From: Synechococcus sp. WH 5701 | GTDB taxonomy: Bacteria > Cyanobacteriota > Cyanobacteriia > PCC-6307 > Cyanobiaceae | Reading direction: 5' to 3' | NCBI RefSeq assembly: GCF_000153045.1 | Contig: NZ_CH724159.1 | Coordinates: 351,259 to 415,258, forward strand | DNA: 64,000 nt | Shown: positions 3,550 through 37,428 of the stretch, in pieces | Numbering within the stretch: the stretch's first letter is position 1 | How the letters are laid out: each line of letters starts with the position of its first letter | The notes under the pieces: generated by a model | What the model was told of the DNA's origin: nothing | What the model saw: only the letters and a program-made list of their open reading frames with translations | Database searches by the model: none | Program-made: the position numbers and the translations under genes

Positions 3550-3582
3550 GACCCCCATCCCCGTCTTCAGGGGGTGGGGGTC
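3550..3582. terminator. Bidirectional hairpin between small ORF and ctpA
   Basis: The arms GACCCCCATCCCC and GGGGGTGGGGGTC pair around a short loop. The hairpin lies between convergent genes. The ctpA stop codon (3567-3569) falls inside the loop, so the terminator overlaps the 3' end of the coding region. Confidence 0.5.
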
Positions 3583-4913
3583 GCAGATGTGCCCAGGGCC
3601 GCCGGCAAGTTGGCGCTTGTGGGGTTGAAGGTGGTGCGGGAGGCGCTGGTTGCGCGCAGCTTCTTGACCAGGGTCGATTCGGCAGCCCTGTACTGCACAT
3701 CTTTTGAGGTGCCCAGGTCTTCGAGCTTGAGCTTGGAGGCCTCCGCTTCACTCAATTTCACCGACACATCCGGGTCGATGCCGTGCTTGTGAATGTCGCG
3801 GCCGCTGGGGGTGAGGTACTTGGCGATGGTCACGGTCATGCCGGAACCATCGGAGAGACCACGGACCGACTGCACGAGGCCCTTGCCGAAGGTTTTCTGA
3901 CCCACCAGCACCGCGCGCTTGTTGTCCTGCAGGGCGCCGGAGAGGATCTCGCTGGCGCTGGCGGAGCCTTCATTCACCAGCACCACGATCGGTGATTTGG
4001 TCAGGGCGCGGCCATTGGCGCGGCGCACGTCCTGGATGCCGTCGCGGGTGCGGGTGGAGACGATGATGCCCTCATCCAGCAACTGGCGGGCTATCTCCAC
4101 ACTGGCCATCAGCAGGCCGCCGGGATTGCTGCGCAGGTCGATCACATAGCCCTGCACGCCCTTCTGCTCAAGGTCGCGGATGGCGGCGCGCATGTCCTTG
4201 GCGGCGTTGGCGTTGAACTGCTTCAGGCGGATGTAACCCACCTTGACGCCATCGGGGCCGGTGTTGATCTGGTGCTCGACGGCATGCAGCTCGATGCGGG
4301 CGCGGGTGAGCGGCACGGAGACCACTTTGCTGTTGCGACGCAGCTCCAGCGTGACCTTGGTGCCGGCCTGGCCGCGGATCAGCTTGACCGCATCCTCGGT
4401 GGTCATGCCCTTGGTGCTCTTGCCGTCGATCGAGACGATCACGTCTTTGGGCTGGACGCCCGCCTCAGAGGCGGGGGAGCCATCGATCGGTGAGACCACC
4501 ACCAGCTCCTTGGTCTCCTTGTCGAGGCTCAGCTGGATGCCCACCCCGGAGAGTTCTCCGGAGGTGTCGATCTGCATCTCCTTGAATTCCCGCGGATCCA
4601 TGAAGCGGGTGTAGGGATCATCGAGGGTGCCGAGCATCCCCCGGATCGCCTCATAGCTTTCCTTGGTGCTGCCGTAGCTCTTGGCCAGCAGGTCACGGCG
4701 CAGTTTGCGCCACTGATCGGGGGTGTATTTGCCGGTGGTGTCGAGGTAGTCGCGGAAGACGATCTGCCAGGCCTGATCCATCACCTCCTTGGGACTGTCG
4801 GTGATCAGCGAGGCGGCGCTCGGGGAGCCCAGCCAGTCGGTGCCGACGATCACGGCGGTGGCGCAGGCACCCAGTCCGGCGAGAACGGCGATACCGGTGC
4901 GACCCCTGCCCAT
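3567..4913 (-). CDS. ctpA: Carboxyl-terminal processing protease (S41 family)
   Basis: This is a 448-residue periplasmic or lumenal serine protease with a Ser/Lys dyad. An N-terminal hydrophobic signal or anchor (residues 7-25) is followed by the S41 N-domain, a PDZ domain (GVGIQLS to GQAGTKVTLELRR) and the catalytic core. The nucleophile lies in NEGSASASEI (about residue 315) and the general base in GQKTFGKG (about residue 341). In cyanobacteria, CtpA-type paralogues mature the D1 protein of photosystem II or process other lumenal proteins; the sequence alone does not show which paralogue this is. The C-terminus ends in a Thr/Pro tail. Confidence 0.92.
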   Translation of the reverse strand: MGRGRTGIAVLAGLGACATAVIVGTDWLGSPSAASLITDSPKEVMDQAWQIVFRDYLDTTGKYTPDQWRKLRRDLLAKSYGSTKESYEAIRGMLGTLDDPYTRFMDPREFKEMQIDTSGELSGVGIQLSLDKETKELVVVSPIDGSPASEAGVQPKDVIVSIDGKSTKGMTTEDAVKLIRGQAGTKVTLELRRNSKVVSVPLTRARIELHAVEHQINTGPDGVKVGYIRLKQFNANAAKDMRAAIRDLEQKGVQGYVIDLRSNPGGLLMASVEIARQLLDEGIIVSTRTRDGIQDVRRANGRALTKSPIVVLVNEGSASASEILSGALQDNKRAVLVGQKTFGKGLVQSVRGLSDGSGMTVTIAKYLTPSGRDIHKHGIDPDVSVKLSEAEASKLKLEDLGTSKDVQYRAAESTLVKKLRATSASRTTFNPTSANLPAALGTSATPTP

Positions 4914-24735: not shown

Positions 24736-25132
24736 ATGGGTCGCGGCCGCCTCGAAGCTTTCAGGGATGGGGGTGCTCTGGGCCAATCTGCATCTGCTCT
24801 TCTGGTTGTCGCTGGTTCCCTTCGCGACCCGCTGGATCGGCGAAAACCACTACGCCGCCCTGCCCACGGCGGTCTACGGCCTCAACCTGCTGCTGGCCGC
24901 CGTGGCCTACTGGATCCTGCAGCAGGCGATTATCAGCAACGAAGGGAAGAACTCCCTGCTGCGGAAGGCCATCGGCCGCGACCTGAAGGGCCGCCTCTCG
25001 CTGCTGCTCTATGCCCTTGCCGTGCTCGCTGCCTTCGCAGCACCATGGCTGGCGCAAGCGGTGTATGTGCTGGTGGCCTTGATCTGGATCATCCCCGATC
25101 GACGCATCGAGCAGGCCCTGCTGGAGGAGTGA
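24736..25132 (+). pseudogene. TMEM175/DUF1211-type channel gene with internal deletion
   Basis: The start at ATG 24736 reads MGRGRLEAFRDG, the N-terminus expected of bacterial TMEM175-family proteins (RLEAFSDGV). A change of frame around 24764-24775 then leads straight into GVLWANLHLLFWLSL and the family's C-terminal half. That part continues to 25132 (ATG 24767 in the new frame, three hydrophobic segments). The first transmembrane helices with the FSD selectivity motif are missing, about 70-80 residues by comparison with the family as I remember it. The remaining 121-residue ORF could still be translated. I read it as a decayed gene at the left edge of the accessory block. Confidence 0.65.
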
Positions 25133-25169
25133 GCTGATGATCCGGCCAACGGACTGCATCGCTGTGAAC

Positions 25170-25197
25170 CGATGGTTCTCTGGTCAGAGAACCATCG
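25170..25197. repeat. Perfect 13-bp hairpin upstream of the nuclease gene
   Basis: The arms CGATGGTTCTCTG and CAGAGAACCATCG are separated by GT. A second palindrome, TGGTTCC-C-GGAACCA, lies at 25304-25318, and a half-copy (TGGTTCACGGAA) at about 25273. The shared TGGTTC core suggests an operator family or a terminator for the upstream gene. There is no T-tract. Confidence 0.45.
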
Positions 25198-25350
25198 CTC
25201 CCATTTTGGGACCGGTGTGCAAAACTCAGACCTCATCAGGGGTTCGTGGCATCACCGAGGCTGGTCAGCAAGTGGTTCACGGAATGGGGGAGACAGTGGC
25301 GGGTGGTTCCCGGAACCATCCAATGACAGGTTGGAAGGGCAATCCGATCT

Positions 25351-25362
25351 TATACTCTGCAC
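25351..25362 (+). promoter_or_regulatory. -10 hexamer abutting the nuclease start (leaderless)
   Basis: TATACT (25351-25356) ends 6 nt before the ATG at 25363, so transcription would begin at or next to the A of the start codon. No Shine-Dalgarno fits in between. A -35 is not convincing; TTGGAA at 25331 would give a 14-nt spacer. Confidence 0.4.
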
Positions 25363-26193
25363 ATGAAATCACCTGATCAATTCCCCGCGATCGCCCAGGC
25401 TCTTGCCTCTGATGTCGAGAGTGCGGCATCAGATTCGAAGCGTCTAAAGCTTCGTACCCTTCTCGCCAAGTTTGGCTACGAAAAGAGATCGGACAGCAAT
25501 ACGGCTGAAATTACTAAGGCTCTAAGCGAAGCGGGCCTCGTTGTTAATCCACCTTTGGTGAGGTACGGGGACAATTGGGAGATAAGTACAGAAGACTGGA
25601 TTTACCTCTCCATTGCCAAAGACTCGGTCGAGAGCATAAGCCGAGGCGTTTCTCCGCCTCGGAGCTGGAATTCAGATGGATGGTTTGACAGAGTTGCCAG
25701 CTTGTTATTAAGAACCGAAAAGGAAGTAGAGATCAAATTCGCGGTTCCACTTCTCATCCGTCTTGGATACTCTGAAGAGGACAGGTTTGATGGCATGCCC
25801 GTTCCGGCATCGCACGGCTCACGCGGCTCAACTTTAGTAATTGATCATGCTGCTTTCAATTCACAACTAGATGCATTAAAGGGGCAGCCACTTATGACGA
25901 TCGAGGCTAAGCGTGACAGCTATCTATCTAAGACAAGGCAGCTACATCAAGCACATGATCAAGCCAAAAGCTACTGCTACTGGACTCAGTGCGACTTCTT
26001 TATGGTAACAGATGGCCAGAGTACGCATGTCTATCGTGTTGGTCGTGGCACGTACGACGACATTGAGCCACTCTTTGAATGTGAGCGACAAGACCTCAAG
26101 TTACGCTTCCCGGAGCTGTACGAGCTGGTATCCAAAGAATCACTAACCAGCCACTACCTAGGGAAGCTTTCATCTACTGAAGAGGCAACATGA
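25363..26193 (+). CDS. Stand-alone nuclease-like protein (HSDR_N/PD-(D/E)xK type), cassette 1
   Basis: The 276-residue protein has two parts. Residues 1-95 look like a winged-helix-type module (LRTLLAKFGYEKRSDSNTAEITKALSEAGL). Residues 120-250 resemble the N-terminal nuclease domain of type I restriction R subunits: FAVPLLIRLGYSEED, then LMTIEAKRD (the E-x-K of the PD-(D/E)xK core, about residue 180), then QAKSYCYWTQCDFFMVTDGQ. No helicase or methylase is attached. A defence nuclease is the likely role, inferred from the fold. GC is low (roughly half) against a GC-rich genome, and an attC-like site follows its stop by about 12 nt. Confidence 0.6.
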   Translation: MKSPDQFPAIAQALASDVESAASDSKRLKLRTLLAKFGYEKRSDSNTAEITKALSEAGLVVNPPLVRYGDNWEISTEDWIYLSIAKDSVESISRGVSPPRSWNSDGWFDRVASLLLRTEKEVEIKFAVPLLIRLGYSEEDRFDGMPVPASHGSRGSTLVIDHAAFNSQLDALKGQPLMTIEAKRDSYLSKTRQLHQAHDQAKSYCYWTQCDFFMVTDGQSTHVYRVGRGTYDDIEPLFECERQDLKLRFPELYELVSKESLTSHYLGKLSSTEEAT

Positions 26194-26204
26194 CTCTCCT
26201 GTTG

Positions 26205-26294
26205 CCATCCAACATCAAGATCCAGCGGCCGGGCATTCCCGAACCTTCTGAAGGCATATGGATACGCTCCGCCGCTGATCTTGAGCGTTGGCAG
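26205..26294 (+). mobile_element. attC-like recombination site A
   Basis: R'' CCATCCAAC (26205-26213) pairs with R' GTTGGCAGG (from 26287). L'' TCAAGATC-c-AGCGGC (26215-26229) pairs perfectly with L' GCCGCTGATCTTGA (26271-26284), except for a single unpaired C. Short unequal spacers (a against gc) lie between the R and L boxes. Paired R and L boxes with one extrahelical base and a non-conserved centre are the hallmark of integron attC sites. The expected crossover is G|TT at 26287. Confidence 0.65.
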
Positions 26295-26529: not shown

Positions 26530-26561
26530 GCCAGATGGCCGTGCTAAAATTGCCAGATGGC
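26530..26561 (+). promoter_or_regulatory. Antitoxin operator-promoter with twin palindromes
   Basis: GCCAGATGGC occurs at 26530-26539 and again at 26552-26561, 22 bp apart (two helical turns). The extended -10 TGC-TAAAAT (TAAAAT at 26545-26550) lies between them. The second copy contains the ATG of the antitoxin (26557). Binding there would block both the promoter and the start, so autorepression by the Xre-type antitoxin is likely. Confidence 0.55.
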
Positions 26562-27009
26562 AAGTCAGAACGCACCGACAACTGCTTCTTTCAGCCCTGA
26601 CCAGGGAGGACCAGCCTCAATCTTGCGTCTGCGAGCAACCAGCTTGGCCGGGCTTCGCGATGCTGTCCGCAGTGGTCTGCCTTTCTCCGCGTTTGTGGCG
26701 CTGACAACGCAACTCGAAATTTCTCCGCAGCACTTCACAGCAGTTTTCGGGATCCCTCCTCGAACCGTCGCCCGCAGGAAGGAGGCGCGACACCTCAACC
26801 CCCAGGAGTCTGATCGGCTTTATCGGGTTGCAAGAGTGGTCTCGCAGGCCGTCGAGGTCCTTGGCTCCATCGACAAGGCCCGCGTGTGGCTGAAAACTCC
26901 CAACCGTGCACTGGGGTGCGAGATGCCTCTCGATCTTCTAGACACCGAAATCGGCGCTCGTCAGGTCGAAGAAGTCTTGCTGCGCCTCAACTACGGGATC
27001 TTTAGCTGA
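26557..27009 (+). CDS. Xre/MbcA/ParS-type antitoxin (DUF2384), cassette 2
   Basis: The 150-residue protein has an N-terminal helix-turn-helix-like region (SPQHFTAVFGIPPRTVARRKEARHLNPQESDRLYRVARV) followed by the DUF2384 C-terminal segment (ARVWLKTPNRALGCEMPLDLLDTEIGARQVEEVLLRLNYGIFS). That pattern neutralises RES-domain toxins. The start ATG 26557 is probably leaderless, 6 nt after TAAAAT. Its stop TGA overlaps the toxin ATG by one base, so the pair is translationally coupled. Confidence 0.88.
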   Translation: MASQNAPTTASFSPDQGGPASILRLRATSLAGLRDAVRSGLPFSAFVALTTQLEISPQHFTAVFGIPPRTVARRKEARHLNPQESDRLYRVARVVSQAVEVLGSIDKARVWLKTPNRALGCEMPLDLLDTEIGARQVEEVLLRLNYGIFS

Positions 27010-27467
27010 TGCGCGTTTGGCGGATCTGCCGCAAGCCCTACGTGGATATAGCGCTTGATGGAATCGGCGGTATGTACACCTCTGGACGCTGGCACATCAA
27101 GGGGCATCCCATTGTCTACACCGCCACCTCTGCGGCGCTCGCGGCGCTGGAAGTGCTCGTCCATGTCGATCCACTCACGGCTCCGACCGATTTAAGGCTG
27201 CTCGCCATCGAAATCCCTGATGACCTGACCACAGAAGTACTCGAACCGGTCACGCTGCCGGAGGACTGGCATTCCGTGCCAGCTCCTGCATCGCTCCAAG
27301 CACTCGGGTCTTCGTGGCTCACGAGCGGACGCACTGCGGCTTTGAACGTGCCGTCCGCAGTCATCACGGTCGAACGCAACTTTCTGCTCAATCCTCGGCA
27401 TCCAGAAGCGCAGAAAATACGTATCATCAGCGATGAGGCTTTCACGTTCGATACGCGGCTCTTATGA
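27009..27467 (+). CDS. RES-domain toxin, cassette 2
   Basis: The 152-residue protein carries the RES fold of NAD+-degrading toxins such as MbcT. It has the conserved Arg in SGRWHIKGHPIVYTA, the Glu in LAALEVLVH and the downstream Ser-containing loop SSWLTSGRTAALNVPSAVI. It ends with the family-typical NPRHPEAQKIRIISDEAFTFDTRL. Partner of the antitoxin immediately upstream. An attC-like palindrome begins 7 nt after its stop, as expected for a mobile toxin-antitoxin cassette. Confidence 0.9.
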   Translation: MRVWRICRKPYVDIALDGIGGMYTSGRWHIKGHPIVYTATSAALAALEVLVHVDPLTAPTDLRLLAIEIPDDLTTEVLEPVTLPEDWHSVPAPASLQALGSSWLTSGRTAALNVPSAVITVERNFLLNPRHPEAQKIRIISDEAFTFDTRLL

Positions 27468-27473
27468 CGAGAA

Positions 27474-27569
27474 GCCAGCCAACAACGCCATCCATCTGTG
27501 CCGCCACCGCGAGCTAATCTGCTTTAAGCATCACTCACTGCAGCCAGACGATGGCAAGCGTTAGCTGGC
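27474..27569 (+). mobile_element. attC-like recombination site B
   Basis: R'' GCCAGCCAAC (27474-27483) pairs 9/10 with R' GTTAGCTGGC (27560-27569). L'' GCCATCcaTCTG (27487-27498) pairs with L' CAGACGATGGC (27545-27555) with one extra base. The spacers between R and L boxes are aac and aagc. The length is about 96 nt. It directly follows the RES toxin gene and precedes the DUF1254 gene by about 40 nt. Confidence 0.65.
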
Positions 27570-27606: not shown

Positions 27607-28938
27607 ATGAACCAAATCGATGAGCAGCAAGCCTACGAGATCGGAATCGAGGCCTACACCTATCTTTACCCGCTCGTTGTGATGGACGCGACGCGGCGTC
27701 AGGCTGTCAACGTCGAAGCCGGGAAGGCCTTCGGGCGTGGACCGATGAACACCTTCACGCACGTCCCGGCATTCCCCCCGGCGGATTTCCGCGATGTTGT
27801 GCGGCCAAACTTCGACACGCTGTACTCGATCGCTTGGCTGGACCTCACGAAAGAACCGATGGTGGTCGCGGTTCCGGACACGCAGGACCGCTACTACATG
27901 CTCCCGATGCTCGACATGTGGTCGGACGTGTTTGCCTGCCCTGGCAAGCGCACGACGGGCACCGGCGCAGGTCGTTTCGCGGTTGTGCCGCCCGGTTGGC
28001 AGGGCAGGCTTCCCGAAGGCGTCCAGCGCATCGACGCGCCGACGCCCTATGTCTGGATCATCGGGCGCACGCAGACCAACGGCGAAAAGGACTACGGGGC
28101 CGTCCATCAGGTGCAAACTGGCTACACGACGACGCCACTGTCACAGCTGGGCAAGACTCCGCAGCCGGTCAGGGCAACGATTGATCCGACCGTGGACATG
28201 AAGACGCCTCCGATGACGCAGGTTGATGGTATGGACGCGGGCAAGTATTTCGGCTACGCCGCTGAACTCCTGAAGGTCAATCCGCCGCACATCACAGACC
28301 AACCCATTGTCGCGCGGATGCGACAATTCGGGATCGACCCCGGCAAGTCCTTTGATCTCGGGAAAGCTGATCTGGCTGTCAAGCGTGCACTGGAGCGCGC
28401 AGCGCCTGCCGCTCTTAAGGCCATGCGGGCGAAGATTCCAACGCTTGCCCGCGTCGTGAATGGCTGGCAGATGAACACGGACACGATGGGTGTGTATGGG
28501 AACTACTATCTCAAGCGGGCCATTGTCGCGCTGGTCGGTCTGGGCGCCAACCTGCCGGAGGACGCGGTCTATCCGCTGAACATCGGCGACGCGGACGGCA
28601 ACCCGCTGAACGGGGCAAACCAGTACGTGCTGCACTTCGCCCAGAATGAGATTCCGCCCGCTCAGGCCTTCTGGTCGATTACGTTGTACGACGAGCATGG
28701 GTTCCCAACCGCCAATGACCTGCAGCGAAACGCCATCGGCGATCGCGATGCACTCACGTTCAACGCGGATGGCTCGGTCGATTTGTACATCCAGCATGTG
28801 TCGCCTGGGGCCGAGAGAGAGTCGAACTGGCTGCCGGCACCGGCAGGAGACTTCAACCTGACTATGCGAGTGTATGCACCCAAGAGCGAGGTCACTGATG
28901 GCCGATGGGCGCCCCCGGCCGTGATAAAGACGCGGTGA
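27607..28938 (+). CDS. DUF1254/DUF1214 family protein, cassette 3
   Basis: The 443-residue protein has an N-terminal DUF1254 region (EAYTYLYPLVVMDATRRQ, NFDTLYSIAWLDL, YYMLPMLDMWSDVF) and a C-terminal DUF1214 region (YPLNIGDADGNPLNGANQYVLHF, FWSITLYDEHGF). The family has no well-fixed biochemical role. No signal peptide is visible. AAAGGA lies 13 nt before the ATG. It is flanked on both sides by attC-like sites, which makes it a metabolic-type cassette rather than a defence gene. GC is intermediate. Confidence 0.88.
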   Translation: MNQIDEQQAYEIGIEAYTYLYPLVVMDATRRQAVNVEAGKAFGRGPMNTFTHVPAFPPADFRDVVRPNFDTLYSIAWLDLTKEPMVVAVPDTQDRYYMLPMLDMWSDVFACPGKRTTGTGAGRFAVVPPGWQGRLPEGVQRIDAPTPYVWIIGRTQTNGEKDYGAVHQVQTGYTTTPLSQLGKTPQPVRATIDPTVDMKTPPMTQVDGMDAGKYFGYAAELLKVNPPHITDQPIVARMRQFGIDPGKSFDLGKADLAVKRALERAAPAALKAMRAKIPTLARVVNGWQMNTDTMGVYGNYYLKRAIVALVGLGANLPEDAVYPLNIGDADGNPLNGANQYVLHFAQNEIPPAQAFWSITLYDEHGFPTANDLQRNAIGDRDALTFNADGSVDLYIQHVSPGAERESNWLPAPAGDFNLTMRVYAPKSEVTDGRWAPPAVIKTR

Positions 28939-28974: not shown

Positions 28975-29031
28975 CATTAACAAGGGCACAAGGCGGCCGC
29001 CTACGGCGGAGCCTTGTGCCCGGCGTTAGGC
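28975..29031 (+). mobile_element. attC-like recombination site C (57 bp)
   Basis: R' is GTTAGGC (29025-29031), preceded by GGC. The arms GGGCACAAGGC (28984-28994) and GCCTTGTGCCC (29011-29021) pair perfectly; an inner CCGCC-TAC-GGCGG hairpin is set off by GG against A. R'' CATTAAC (28975-28981) matches only at TTAAC. The length fits the classical 59-base element. A site using AAGCCAAC at 28945-28952 as R'' is an alternative. Confidence 0.6.
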
Positions 29032-29344: not shown

Positions 29345-29869
29345 GTGATCGCCATCCATGCCCCCTGCCGCTGGAGCAGTGATGGCCGCGCGCGGCCCTG
29401 TGAACGGGAGTTGATGCAGAAGGGGATCTGGTGTTTCTCCTCCCCCACCCGTCAGAAGGCCCACACCCCCCATCGCACCGATTACTTCGGCTGGATGCTG
29501 CAGGGGGAGAAGCTCTACCAGGCGCTGGCGGCGTCCCATCCCCTGATCTGCCGCTTGCCCATCGCCGGGCCTGGCTGCTCGGAAACCTTCCCCCATGCCA
29601 TCACCTGGCACCTGCGCGCCGGCAAGGCCAAGGCGCCCCAGAAGCGCACGCAGCGGCGTGAGTTGCTGCAGCAAGCAGGAATCGACCTGGCACCGCTCAC
29701 CAACATCGACTGGATCGATGCCGCCTTGTGCGCCCTCACCGCCCACCACGCCGCCACCGGTGGGGAGTGCCTGATCCATGGCGAGCCGGAATCGGGCCTG
29801 ATCATCGTTCCCAGCTTCCCTGCCGCAATGGCCTCCAGCCGTGGAGTTCGGCCAGACTGCCCTTCATGA
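29345..29869 (+). pseudogene. DUF429 (RNase H-like) gene, 5'-truncated
   Basis: The readable frame begins at GTG 29345 (VIAIHAPCRWSSDGRARPCERELMQKG), which aligns with the middle of DUF429 proteins where VAIDAP normally lies. The expected N-terminal strand with GIDLS/GVDFS is absent in this frame. The C-terminal part is intact: FYGWML-like YFGWMLQGEKLYQAL, ETFPHAITWHLR, LTNIDWIDAALCALTAHHA. DUF429 proteins have a predicted RNase H-like fold of unknown role. The gene ends in an ATGA overlap with the MNT gene, so it heads that operon. A frameshift rather than a loss of the 5' end is possible. Confidence 0.55.
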
Positions 29870-30249
29870 GCGCCTCAGCCCGCCCCTCCAGCTATCACTA
29901 CGTGGTGGATGAGCCACTGCTGCGCACCATCACGGCCGAGATCCAGGCAGCCATCCCAGGCGCTGAAGTACGCCTGTTCGGCTCCCGCGCCCGCGGCACT
30001 GCCCGCCCCGATTCCGATTTGGATCTTCTGGTCACCGTGCCGGATGCCTGGCTGGCCAGCCATTCGCGTTTGGAGGAAACGGATGCCCTGGGTTGGAAAT
30101 TGGCCCATCACCGCCTCCCGATCGAGCTGCTGCTTTACTCCGCCAGCGAGGTGGAGCATCGTCGTCGTGGGGGGATCAATGTGATCGCCGAGGCCTTCCG
30201 CTATGGGCGGCGGCTGGATCCTGCGGAGCCACTGCATGGCCCCGGCTGA
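29866..30249 (+). CDS. MNT-domain nucleotidyltransferase (antitoxin of a HEPN/MNT pair)
   Basis: The 127-residue minimal nucleotidyltransferase carries GSRARGTARPDSDLDLLV (GSx10DxD, about residues 43-60), with a third acidic residue in LPIELLLY. In HEPN/MNT systems the MNT partner can nucleotidylate and silence the HEPN RNase. The start ATG 29866 overlaps the DUF429 stop by 4 nt, and the stop overlaps the HEPN start by 14 nt. Confidence 0.88.
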   Translation: MSASARPSSYHYVVDEPLLRTITAEIQAAIPGAEVRLFGSRARGTARPDSDLDLLVTVPDAWLASHSRLEETDALGWKLAHHRLPIELLLYSASEVEHRRRGGINVIAEAFRYGRRLDPAEPLHGPG

Positions 30250-30619
30250 AACGTCGTCCGGCTTTCTGCGCATCGCGCACCGTGATCTGCGAACCGCGAT
30301 GGCCATGGCGGATCCGTCCCTTTTTGAGGAATCCACCTGGGGATTTCATCTGCAGCAGGCGATCGAGAAGACTCTGAAGGCCTGGCTGCTGGTGCTCACG
30401 CCTGAGCAACCACCCTTCAGTCACAACCTCAGGCTGTTGTTTCAGATGCTGCGCGACCAGGGCGCCGCTGTTGAGCCCTTCCTTGGACTCAGCCGCTTCA
30501 CCCTCTTTGCTGTGGTGTGGCGCTACGACGAAGAGCCGGAGCTGGAACACCTCGATCGCGCCGCCTGGAACCAGCTCTGCGCTGACCTGCACGCCCACGT
30601 GGCCGCGCTGATCCCATGA
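30236..30619 (+). CDS. HEPN-domain protein (toxin of a HEPN/MNT pair)
   Basis: The 127-residue all-helical HEPN protein starts at ATG 30236 (MAPAETSSGFLRIAHRDL). The family hallmarks are FHLQQAIEKTLKAWLL, HNLRLLF and the final helix RFTLFAVVWRYDE. The catalytic Rx4-6H motif is not clearly canonical: RYDEEPELEH is one possible reading. RNase activity is therefore uncertain. It ends in an ATGA overlap with hsdR. Confidence 0.82.
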   Translation: MAPAETSSGFLRIAHRDLRTAMAMADPSLFEESTWGFHLQQAIEKTLKAWLLVLTPEQPPFSHNLRLLFQMLRDQGAAVEPFLGLSRFTLFAVVWRYDEEPELEHLDRAAWNQLCADLHAHVAALIP

Positions 30620-32910
30620 ACGAGGCCGAAACCCGCGCTGAACTGATTGATCCGCTGCTGGCGGCGGCTGGCTGGGGCGTGGTGGAAGGCAGCCGCATCC
30701 GGCGTGAGTTCTCGATCACTCCCGGCCGGATCGAGGGCGGCGGCAAGCGCGGCAAGCCGCTCACCGCCGACTACGTGCTCACCTACCGCAACACCCAGCT
30801 GGCGGTGGTGGAAGCCAAGGCCGACACCCTGTCACTCAGCGAAGGCGTGGGCCAGGCCAATGATTACGCCGCCAAGCTGCAGATCCGCTTCACCTACGCC
30901 AGCAACGGCAAGGGCGTCTACGCCATCGACATGGCCACGGGCGAGGAGGCCGAGGCCGCCGGTTTCCCCACGCCGCAGGACCTGTGGGACCGTACCTTTG
31001 CCGAGGAGAACGCCTGGCGTAATCGCTTCGCTGCCATCTCCTATCCCGACAAGGGCGGCAGCTGGCAGATCCGCTTCTACCAGGACATCGCCGTGACCCG
31101 TGTGCTGGAGGCCATCGCCAGCGGCCACGACCGCATCCTGCTGACGCTGGCCACCGGCACCGGCAAAACCTCGATCGCCTTCCAGATCATCTGGAAGCTG
31201 TTTCAGGCCCGTTGGAACCTCTCCTGGCAGGCCACCCGCCGGCCCCGCATCCTCTTCCTGGCTGATCGGAACAACCTCGCCGATCAGGCCTTCAACGACT
31301 TCACCGGTTTTGCCGCCTTCGAAGACAACGCCCTGGCCCGCATCGAACCTGATGCACTGCGCAAGAAGGGCCGGGTTCCCACGAACGCCAGTGTGTTCCT
31401 CACCATCTTCCAGACCTTCATGAGCGGACCGGCGGCGGACGGCAAGCCCTCCCCCTGGTTCGGCCAGTACCCGCCCGATTTCTTCGATTTCATCGTGATC
31501 GATGAATGCCACCGCGGTGGCGCCAACAACGAATCCACCTGGCGCGGCATCCTCGAGTACTTCGCCCCCGCCGTGCAGCTCGGCCTCACCGCCACCCCCC
31601 GCCGCACCGACAACACCGACACCTACGCCTACTTCGGCGAGCCGGTGTTCACCTACTCCCTCAAGGAAGGCATCAATGATGGCTTCCTCACTCCCTTTCG
31701 CGTTAAGCAGGTCACGACCACCCTCGATGAGTACGTCTACACGCCCGACGACACGGTGGTGGAAGGCGAGATCGAGGAAGGCAAGCTCTACAAGGAGGCT
31801 GACTTCAACAGGATCATCGAGATCAAACAGCGGGAACAGCAGCGGGTTGAGATCTTTCTGGGTCAGATCGATCAATGTGAGAAAACCCTGGTGTTCTGCG
31901 CCACCCAGGATCACGCCCTGGCGATCCGTGATCTGATCAACCAGCTCAAGACCAGCACCGATCCCAACTATTGCCAGCGGGTCACTGCCAATGATGGCGA
32001 ACTGGGCAACACCTGGCTGCGGACCTTCCAGGACAATGAGAAGTCCATCCCAACCATCCTCACCACCTCCCAGAAGCTTTCCACCGGCGTGGATGCCCGC
32101 AATGTGCGCAACATCGGCCGCGGCACCCGCCTGTACGACGGCAAGGATTATTTCACCATCTACGACTTCGTAAAAGCGCATCAACTTTTCAGCGATCCCG
32201 AGTGGGACGGCGAACCCCCGGAACCGGAAGACGTTGTCTCTCGACCACCTCGTCCTCCCATCGAACCCCCGGAAGCCAAGGACCACGACGGCAAGGATGA
32301 AACCAGCGACCAGACCCGCCGCAGCAAGGCCCGCATCAAGCTGGGCGATGGCAAGGAACGCTCCATCCAGCACATGATGGTGACCAGCTTCTGGCACCCA
32401 GACGGCACACCGATGAGTTCGCAGCAGTTCCTTGAACTGCTTTATGGCAAGCTGCCGGAGTTCGTCAAGGACGAGGCCGAGCTTCGGGAACTCTGGAGTT
32501 CGCCAGACACTCGCCGTAAGCTGCTAACGGGCCTCGAGGAGAAGGGTTTCGGTGCAGCCCAGCTGGCCGAGATGCAGAAGATCATCAATGCCGAGAACAG
32601 TGATCTGTTCGATGTCCTGGCCCATGTGGCCTATGCCCTGCAGCCCATCCCCCGCGAAGAGCGAGCCGAGCATGCACGCCTGTACATCCATTCCAGGTTC
32701 ACCAGCAAGCAGCAGCTCTTCCTGGATTTTGTTCTCCAGCACTACGTGACGATGGGCGTGCAGGAACTGGCCCAGGAAAAGCTCACACCGTTACTGCAGC
32801 TCCGCTACCAGAACTCCATTGCTGATGCCGTGGCCGATCTGGGACGACCAGAAGAAATCGGCCAGCTCTTTTCAGGCTTCCAGAGGTATCTTTATGAGAC
32901 TTCAGCCTGA
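30616..32910 (+). CDS. hsdR: Type I restriction R subunit (EcoAI-like), probable internal deletion
   Basis: The 764-residue protein has the nuclease core VVEAKAD (ExK, about residue 66), Walker A in LATGTGKTSIAFQI (about residue 180), the DEAD-box variant DECHRGG (about residue 296), LTATPRRTD and the C-terminal specificity-complex domain. Near residue 500 the sequence runs STGVDARNVRNI directly into GRGTRLYDGKDYF. Relatives as I remember them carry about 16 extra residues here, ending in a Q before IGRGTR (motif V-VI region). An in-frame deletion of about 48 nt at 32115/32116 is inferred; it would remove the motif VI Gln and probably impair translocation. No hsdM or hsdS is adjacent. Confidence 0.85.
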   Translation: MNEAETRAELIDPLLAAAGWGVVEGSRIRREFSITPGRIEGGGKRGKPLTADYVLTYRNTQLAVVEAKADTLSLSEGVGQANDYAAKLQIRFTYASNGKGVYAIDMATGEEAEAAGFPTPQDLWDRTFAEENAWRNRFAAISYPDKGGSWQIRFYQDIAVTRVLEAIASGHDRILLTLATGTGKTSIAFQIIWKLFQARWNLSWQATRRPRILFLADRNNLADQAFNDFTGFAAFEDNALARIEPDALRKKGRVPTNASVFLTIFQTFMSGPAADGKPSPWFGQYPPDFFDFIVIDECHRGGANNESTWRGILEYFAPAVQLGLTATPRRTDNTDTYAYFGEPVFTYSLKEGINDGFLTPFRVKQVTTTLDEYVYTPDDTVVEGEIEEGKLYKEADFNRIIEIKQREQQRVEIFLGQIDQCEKTLVFCATQDHALAIRDLINQLKTSTDPNYCQRVTANDGELGNTWLRTFQDNEKSIPTILTTSQKLSTGVDARNVRNIGRGTRLYDGKDYFTIYDFVKAHQLFSDPEWDGEPPEPEDVVSRPPRPPIEPPEAKDHDGKDETSDQTRRSKARIKLGDGKERSIQHMMVTSFWHPDGTPMSSQQFLELLYGKLPEFVKDEAELRELWSSPDTRRKLLTGLEEKGFGAAQLAEMQKIINAENSDLFDVLAHVAYALQPIPREERAEHARLYIHSRFTSKQQLFLDFVLQHYVTMGVQELAQEKLTPLLQLRYQNSIADAVADLGRPEEIGQLFSGFQRYLYETSA

Positions 32911-36575: not shown

Positions 36576-36893
36576 ATGCAGATCCAAGTGAACACAGACA
36601 AGAATATCTCAGGGCACGAGGCTCTGGCTCAGAATGTCGAAGACACTCTTCATCAAGTTCTAGCGCGCTTCGCTGATCACATCACCAGGCTGGAAGTGCA
36701 CCTCAGCGACGAGGATAGTACATCGAAGACAGGCACAATTGACAAGCGATGCTTGCTTGAGGCGCGGCTGGCGGGACGCGAGCCGACAGCCGTGAGCGAC
36801 CTGGCCCGTACAACTGAGCAGGCAGTAACCGGAGCTGCTCATAAGATGGTGAGCCTGCTTGACAGTGAATTGGGTAAGCTTGGTAGGCACTAG
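36576..36893 (+). CDS. HPF/RaiA-like ribosome-associated protein
   Basis: The 105-residue protein starts at ATG 36576. The S30AE-like fold is suggested by MQIQVNTDKNISGHEALAQNVEDTLHQVLARFADHITRLEVHLSDE and the later LEARLAGREPTAVSDLARTTEQAVTGAAHKM. It lacks the long C-terminal dimerisation domain of cyanobacterial LrtA, so it resembles the short proteobacterial type. It is likely an extra, acquired copy. An attC-like remnant begins about 35 nt after its stop. Confidence 0.7.
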   Translation: MQIQVNTDKNISGHEALAQNVEDTLHQVLARFADHITRLEVHLSDEDSTSKTGTIDKRCLLEARLAGREPTAVSDLARTTEQAVTGAAHKMVSLLDSELGKLGRH

Positions 36894-36924
36894 GGTGTCC
36901 ATGTTGGCCTGTCAGTCATGGGCC

Positions 36925-37006
36925 CAGGTTCAGGATCCGGCGGTCGGGCTCAGACGTTTAGGGTGCATGAACAGAACTACTTCCCACCGCTGATCTTGAG
37001 CAGACT
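36925..37006 (+). mobile_element. attC-like remnant E, homologous to site A
   Basis: TCAGGATC-c-GGCGG (36930-36943) pairs with CCGCTGATCTTGA (36987-36999) with two mismatches and the same unpaired C as site A. The 15-mer CCGCTGATCTTGAGC is shared exactly with site A, and the arm-to-arm length (about 70 nt) is the same. The R boxes are degraded (CCAGG, AGACTG). Confidence 0.4.
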
Positions 37007-37038
37007 GATCAGCCGATGCCGATGGCCGCGATGGTGGC

Positions 37039-37428
37039 TCAAGCCGCTTCCAAGCCCAGGTGATCCACGTAGGGCTGGAAGTCGCGATCGCTGAACAGCA
37101 GGGGCACAGTCGCCTCGATGCAGGCGGTGGCGATGATTCCGTCGATCGTTTTGCGCACCGTGATGCCCCGACTGCGCAGGCTGCGGTAGTTCTCCGCCGC
37201 CTTGTAGGCGTTCTGGGGCCCGAGCATCGCCAGCATGGGGATGGCGCGAAACAACTGGCGGGCTGTGGCGACATCTCGGTCGTGGCGGAAGCCCTGCAGC
37301 ACCTCCACCAGGATCAGATCACCGATCGCCACCGGCGTGCTGCCCAGCAGGCCATCCAGGCGCTCCACCTCGGGGGTGCTGACGCCATTGAAGAAGTCGA
37401 TCCAGACCGATGAATCGACAACGATCAC
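37039..37428 (-). CDS. vapC: PIN-domain RNase toxin (VapC-like)
   Basis: 129 residues. The PIN acidic residues are visible in VVDSSVWIDFF (Asp near residue 5), LILVEVLQG (Glu), RKTIDGIIA (Asp) and SDRDFQPY (Asp). VapC toxins cleave tRNA or rRNA under stress. Its start overlaps the antitoxin stop by 4 nt. Base composition is close to core. Confidence 0.9.
   Translation of the reverse strand: MIVVDSSVWIDFFNGVSTPEVERLDGLLGSTPVAIGDLILVEVLQGFRHDRDVATARQLFRAIPMLAMLGPQNAYKAAENYRSLRSRGITVRKTIDGIIATACIEATVPLLFSDRDFQPYVDHLGLEAA

Follow-up and report, generated by a model that had tools for sequence, protein, structure and literature searches.

The window analysed here, a 64,000-nucleotide stretch of the Synechococcus sp. 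WH 5701 genome, carries a short array of integron cassettes at an attI-like site, the first of which encodes a predicted restriction-type nuclease. The features of this locus, all on the forward strand, are as follows.

25130-25332, forward strand: attI-like integron site, with palindromes at 25170-25197 and 25301-25321 and the core GGAACCATCCAATGACAGGTT at 25312-25332
25331-26287, forward strand: integron cassette 1 (957 bp), comprising leader, nuclease ORF and attC1; delimited by complementarity between its start and R''
25351-25356, forward strand: possible -10 box TATACT, 6 nt before the ATG
25363-26193, forward strand: nuclease ORF of 276 aa, present once in the genome; the protein comprises a winged-helix-like N-domain (residues 1-86), a linker (~87-105), an HSDR_N PD-(D/E)xK core (~107-227) and C-terminal helices (242-274)
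26207-26293, forward strand: attC1 of the nuclease cassette, from covariance model, fold and pairing
26557-27467, forward strand: cassette 2 cargo, an Xre/MbcA-ParS antitoxin and a RES toxin (Pfam), with attC2 next
27477-27566, forward strand: attC2, 13.0 bits; relaxed scan 15.25 against a core maximum of 14.25
27607-28938, forward strand: cassette 3 cargo, a DUF1254/DUF1214 protein (Pfam)
28975-29031, forward strand: attC3, short and the weakest of the three, 10.5 bits; hairpin AACAAGGGCACAAGGC..GCCTTGTGCCCGGCGTT

The left flank of the array, consisting of nrdJ, a membrane-protein ORF and the palindromes, is ~80-99% identical in four genomes of the same genus (L102-L105), with the palindromes partly deleted in L102. 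This homology ends at 25332-25335, at the crossover GTT, past which other, attC-containing DNA follows in three of the four relatives; the contig of the fourth (G035) stops ~50 bases past the crossover. Within the site itself, crossover falls between G25330 and T25331, and the TGGTTC palindrome at 25170-25197 forms a perfect 13-bp inverted repeat, none being expected by chance. A ~40-bp core, GGTGGTTC-CGGAACC-TCCAATGACARGTT, also occurs ~160 bp after intI in Vulcanococcus (GGAACCATCCAATGACAGGTT part at L059 4672-4692; intI at 3576-4508), and the attI core was additionally found at the intI locus of G540 (L063) and where the Cruz-7E5 array starts; relative to all other copies, the window site differs by a single change ahead of the crossover G. 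Because the core adjoins intI in relatives and the flank homology ends at the crossover, we interpret the site as an attI, at which the nuclease cassette is the first cassette. The palindromes, which the sequence-only reading had grouped with the nuclease, are located before the start of the cassette and form part of the attI. A role for them as operators of the N-domain was also considered and dropped, as they lie outside the cassette and are present in genomes without the gene at the site. Within the genus, an nrdJ-side attI without intI was observed in five or more genomes, with occupants elsewhere including a RelA/SpoT-domain PDC-S33-like protein, a CAAX protease and a methyltransferase.

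Between the cassette start, GTTGGAAG, and the R'' of the cassette's own attC, 7/8 positions are complementary; the corresponding figure is 8/8 in RedBA-s and Vulcanococcus and 7/8 in Cruz-7E5. Such complementarity is what a circular cassette opened at G^TT should show. Sites of the attC type were called with a covariance model and a relaxed generic scan. In the former, attC1 scored 86.1 bits, which is not an independent score given that attC1 was among the 12 sites used to build the model; its fold z-score is -3.8. Across these 12 sites, drawn from four genomes, the R'', L'', L' and R' arms and one extrahelical base are conserved, and 93% of cells in the 21-pair stem are paired, compared with 26-46% when slid. 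In the relaxed scan only attC1 and attC2 are relied upon, because the null is high (core DNA up to 14.25). The nuclease cassette is present in four different arrays, and its leader is common to the three Synechococcus copies from G^TT on, preceded by unrelated DNA that holds an attC in two of them. A -10-like leader is found in all three (TTATACT, TTATACT and TTATAAT), and a leaderless start of the nuclease gene is suggested; a sigma-70 consensus scan called no promoter at the TATACT box. With its attC, the attI, the crossover point and the occupancy in related genomes all identified, the earlier proposal of cassette cargo was borne out, and the nuclease gene is almost certainly an integron cassette.

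Further into the array, the R'' of attC2 matches the cassette 2 start at 7/8, and an attC2-like site stands between cassettes 1 and 2 of the integron in Vulcanococcus. Beyond attC3, the region at 29863-32910 holds an MNT/HEPN pair followed by HsdR, with HsdM and HsdS not seen in the window; in G124, the site is taken by the MNT/HEPN genes together with the 3' part of HsdR alone, and the nuclease is absent. Positions 36652-37067 represent an insertion relative to G182 (L104) and hold a degenerate attC (36928-37003, 42.7 bits) without R boxes.

No intI lies near the window attI, and the locus is thus not a complete integron in the sense of intI adjoining attI. Two IntI matches above the family cut-off were identified on contig C8 of the same genome (270004-270942 and 930797-931555), with attC sites nearby, and IntI was found in 4/4 cassette-bearing genomes searched. 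Integrons are known in Cyanobacteria, and arrays without intI can arise by three routes, namely off-target insertion by a distant IntI, intI loss, and rearrangement (PMC8618304). Conservation of the attI argues against random off-target insertion, leaving use in trans, or loss or separation of intI. It is possible that the platform is a relic, in which the nrdJ-side attI has lost its intI and cassettes no longer move, rather than a trans landing site for the C8 integrases; such decay would agree with the degenerate attC-like DNA at which the array ends (36928-37003) and with the single change before the crossover G, but sits poorly with the different DNA carried by three sister genomes after the exact GTT, and with the full-length IntI genes of this genome. 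Contig C8 also carries, between intI and an attC (L107 10546-13594), genes for ParA-like ATPase, SIR2_2/ThsA-like and N6/N4-methylase-like proteins, a three-gene block that we regard as a candidate defence operon carried as integron cargo.

The nuclease ORF has a GC content of 0.492, compared with 0.65-0.70 over most of the window, in keeping with the unusual composition first remarked upon. Pfam HSDR_N_2 (PF13588) matches residues 130-227 at 31.7 bits (cut-off 25 bits) and is matched in 7/7 aligned homologues, among which D161, E181-A-K183 and Q200xxxY204 are invariant down to ~30% identity; loss of the catalytic D/E/K was looked for in these alignments and not seen. In the AF2 model, the motif residues of the PD-(D/E)xK core sit in the expected strands and helix, accompanied by a low-confidence linker at 86-94 and two C-terminal helices. 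Foldseek comparison of the whole protein against the PDB returned weak matches only, with restriction-type nucleases on top and none significant; the best viral match was a phage protein annotated as 'Type I restriction enzyme R protein, N-terminal domain' (E 1.6e-5). The HSDR_N/PD-(D/E)xK assignment made from the letters is therefore upheld by Pfam score, retained catalytic residues and predicted structure, and the product is probably a catalytically competent nuclease. Its core is that of the HSDR_N/HSDR_N_2 domains of type I R subunits (PF04313, PF13588), with the same D, ExK and QxxxY. Unlike those subunits, the protein has no helicase, C-terminal R domain or HsdM/HsdS, and carries the winged-helix-like N-domain instead. 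No Pfam helicase match indicative of an SF2 helicase was found in the 276-aa chain, and neither PADLOC nor NCBIfam returned a full-length defence match.

Full-length homologues were identified in Synechococcus RedBA-s and Cruz-7E5 (83-84% identity), Vulcanococcus (74-75%) and Geothrix (55%), and at greater distance in a Trichlorobacter MAG (45%), a viral contig (33%) and a Deinococcus plasmid (~30%). A two-domain architecture of 263-280 aa is thus common to Cyanobacteria, Acidobacteria (Geothrix), Desulfobacterota (Trichlorobacter), Deinococcus and a phage contig. The family is rare, occurring in 4/201 genomes sampled in its own taxonomic family and in 2/345 and 1/247 genomes of the other two phyla sampled, query genomes counted in each case. 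Two of nine copies are broken: the Cruz-7E5 copy has a stop at codon 3, and that of Geotalea is truncated after residue ~122. Comparison of the window gene with RedBA-s and Cruz-7E5 gave a dN/dS of ~0.1, similar in both halves and domains, which indicates that the gene is under purifying selection. An Rfam scan of the region yielded nothing relevant, and phage records and PDB sequences, each searched with the single protein, returned no match.

Residues 1-86 are predicted to adopt a winged-helix-like topology (H-E-H-H-E-E; mean pLDDT 88). Several winged-helix proteins are among the top Foldseek matches of this domain, the best at E 0.099 and none at or below 0.001; given that these matches are weak, 'winged helix' is a prediction. 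The winged-helix module proposed initially is accordingly kept as a predicted one. Cyanobacterial AAA+ proteins of ~830 aa have the same module at their N-terminus (hhalign 97.2%, E 3.8e-11); examples lie at L038 4581-7070, L039 3903-6386 and L040 4558-7005. A marginal match (E 0.0064, 15.6 bits; cut-off 260) aligns nuclease residues 31-66 with the first ~36 residues of the model for DS-11, an experimentally tested anti-phage protein from DefensePredictor (PMC13092281). DS-11 combines CBS and HEPN without a nuclease of this type, and its likeness to the window protein is confined to that N-terminal stretch; a search for the DS-11 family across the phylum gave mostly CBS-domain matches, none above cut-off.

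Inspection of the loci of homologues revealed a range of neighbours. In RedBA-s, the ORF directly upstream of the nuclease encodes PARIS AriAB (E 7.7e-210) and is followed by an attC; this fused AriAB gene with its attC (L054 13773-15383) is apparently an integron cassette of its own. The Cruz-7E5 copy neighbours a TIR/deoxyribosyltransferase-like protein (weak match), that of Trichlorobacter RhuM/PDC-S05, and the truncated Geotalea copy a second HSDR_N protein. In Deinococcus, the homologue is located in a BREX locus with DarT1-NADAR, immediately before pglZ; on this plasmid, of Deinococcus sp. NW-56, DarT1, an IS3, the NADAR antitoxin and the nuclease homologue lie within the BREX operon (L012 27470-31832). 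On the viral contig, the homologue stands between phage head genes (major head, scaffolding) and an antirepressor. No defence neighbour was recognised at the Vulcanococcus and Geothrix loci. Across these homologous loci no partner gene recurs, in answer to the suggestion that co-occurring genes be looked for, and this fits a one-protein system. A self-contained nuclease, as first suggested, is further supported by the lack of a linked methylase or helicase partner, the retained catalytic set, and the two-domain form seen in four phyla. The further statement that helicase, methylase and partner are all absent holds for the cassette, and for HsdM/HsdS in particular, with no plausible amino-methylase motif in the long ORFs of the window. 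It does not hold for the surroundings, where an HsdR-like helicase ORF (30616-32910) lies 4.4 kb downstream of the nuclease gene; such a helicase is linked to the nuclease gene in no homologous locus.

The sequence thus shows a short integron array inserted at a chromosomal attI-like site without intI, with the nuclease gene as its first cassette. For the product we propose the following mechanism. The predicted winged-helix-like N-domain would recognise a target and the HSDR_N-type PD-(D/E)xK nuclease would cut DNA, such that a stand-alone endonuclease may restrict invading phage DNA without a partner methylase, while integron recombination would spread it between strains. From genomic context, an anti-phage role is plausible and more likely than not. 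A solitary nuclease without a methylase must spare its host, either by recognising modified or unusual DNA or by being active only during infection. In the former case the host would be spared through recognition of a feature of phage DNA, such as a modified base, a structure or an end, in the manner of a miniature type IV or type IIM-like enzyme; targeting that depends on modification or structure, as opposed to a fixed unmodified sequence, is put forward tentatively. This reading is favoured over an abortive one on account of the resemblance of the N-domain to a DNA reader and, by analogy, of the homologue that resides in BREX.

Under abortive infection, by comparison, the N-domain would sense an infection signal and unleash non-specific DNA cleavage, killing the infected cell. 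The N-module also starts AAA+ proteins and, marginally, DS-11 (CBS-HEPN), and may for that reason be a sensor or adaptor as opposed to a sequence reader; neighbouring cargoes, moreover, are often of toxin-antitoxin or abortive type (RES-Xre, PARIS, DarT1-NADAR). We nonetheless regard this explanation as unlikely, considering that no conserved partner makes or carries such a signal and that the winged-helix prediction favours nucleic-acid binding. A role outside defence, whether as a DNA-processing or regulatory factor or as a selfish nuclease maintaining the cassette or element, seems rather improbable: the adjoining DUF1254 cassette has no known defence link, and integron cassettes encode many functions, ~10% of those of V. 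cholerae being anti-phage according to a review (PMC12409362), but most other loci have defence- or phage-linked neighbours and the nuclease family is restriction-type. Finally, the notion of a decaying or non-functional N-terminal fragment detached from a type I R subunit, to which the HSDR_N affiliation of the core and the HsdR-like ORF 4.4 kb away might point, was rejected as extremely improbable, since all full-length homologues share the uniform 263-280 aa size with the same extra N-domain, the catalytic set is invariant, dN/dS is ~0.1, and the homologues are themselves no fragments of larger R subunits.

Restriction by a methylase-free enzyme would have parallels among known systems. DpnI (type IIM) pairs a PD-(D/E)xK domain with a winged helix, BrxU/GmrSD nucleases use DUF262/DUF1524 and not HSDR_N, and BrxU accompanies BREX, with BrxU-type enzymes complementing a methylation-based system. 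Like DpnI-like and BrxU-GmrSD-like enzymes, the window protein would be a small nuclease acting without a methylase, an analogy of working mode rather than of sequence; its domain order differs from that of DpnI, and one homologue sits in BREX, as does BrxU, which is of type IV (PMC12409362). Anti-phage activity of integron cassettes was described in 2025 (Darracq 2025; Kieffer 2025, both as summarised in PMC12409362), and integron-carried restriction-type enzymes are reported there to be size-reduced. The present cassette likewise consists of a small single gene and an attC, in an array beside a toxin-antitoxin cassette, and differs from those reported in its picocyanobacterial array, an attI without adjoining intI, a family absent from PADLOC and NCBIfam, and a defence role that is predicted. 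A limited literature search found no paper on the nuclease cassette or on a picocyanobacterial attI without intI, and we consider three things to be new: the carriage of this nuclease family by an integron cassette, the attI core of picocyanobacteria, and a chromosomal copy of that core that lacks intI and varies in its occupants.

That the attI core occurs next to intI and also at a chromosomal site without intI prompts the question of whether integrases act in trans at dispersed sites. More speculatively, and with considerable doubt, freshwater picocyanobacteria might keep an intI-less attI by nrdJ that is served in trans by distant IntI, its cargo including a new family of one-gene, methylase-free restriction nucleases; their winged-helix-like module, which AAA+ and possibly CBS-HEPN proteins also carry, could represent a general phage-recognition domain. 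The 957-bp cassette with its recombination sites provides an exact, testable unit for a nuclease family unnamed in current defence libraries, and ties picocyanobacterial integrons to defence-type cargo that comprises the window nuclease, PARIS, the TIR-like protein and the SIR2/methyltransferase block. For its host, a freshwater Synechococcus-type bacterium, the nuclease is predicted to be a compact, one-gene anti-virus enzyme.
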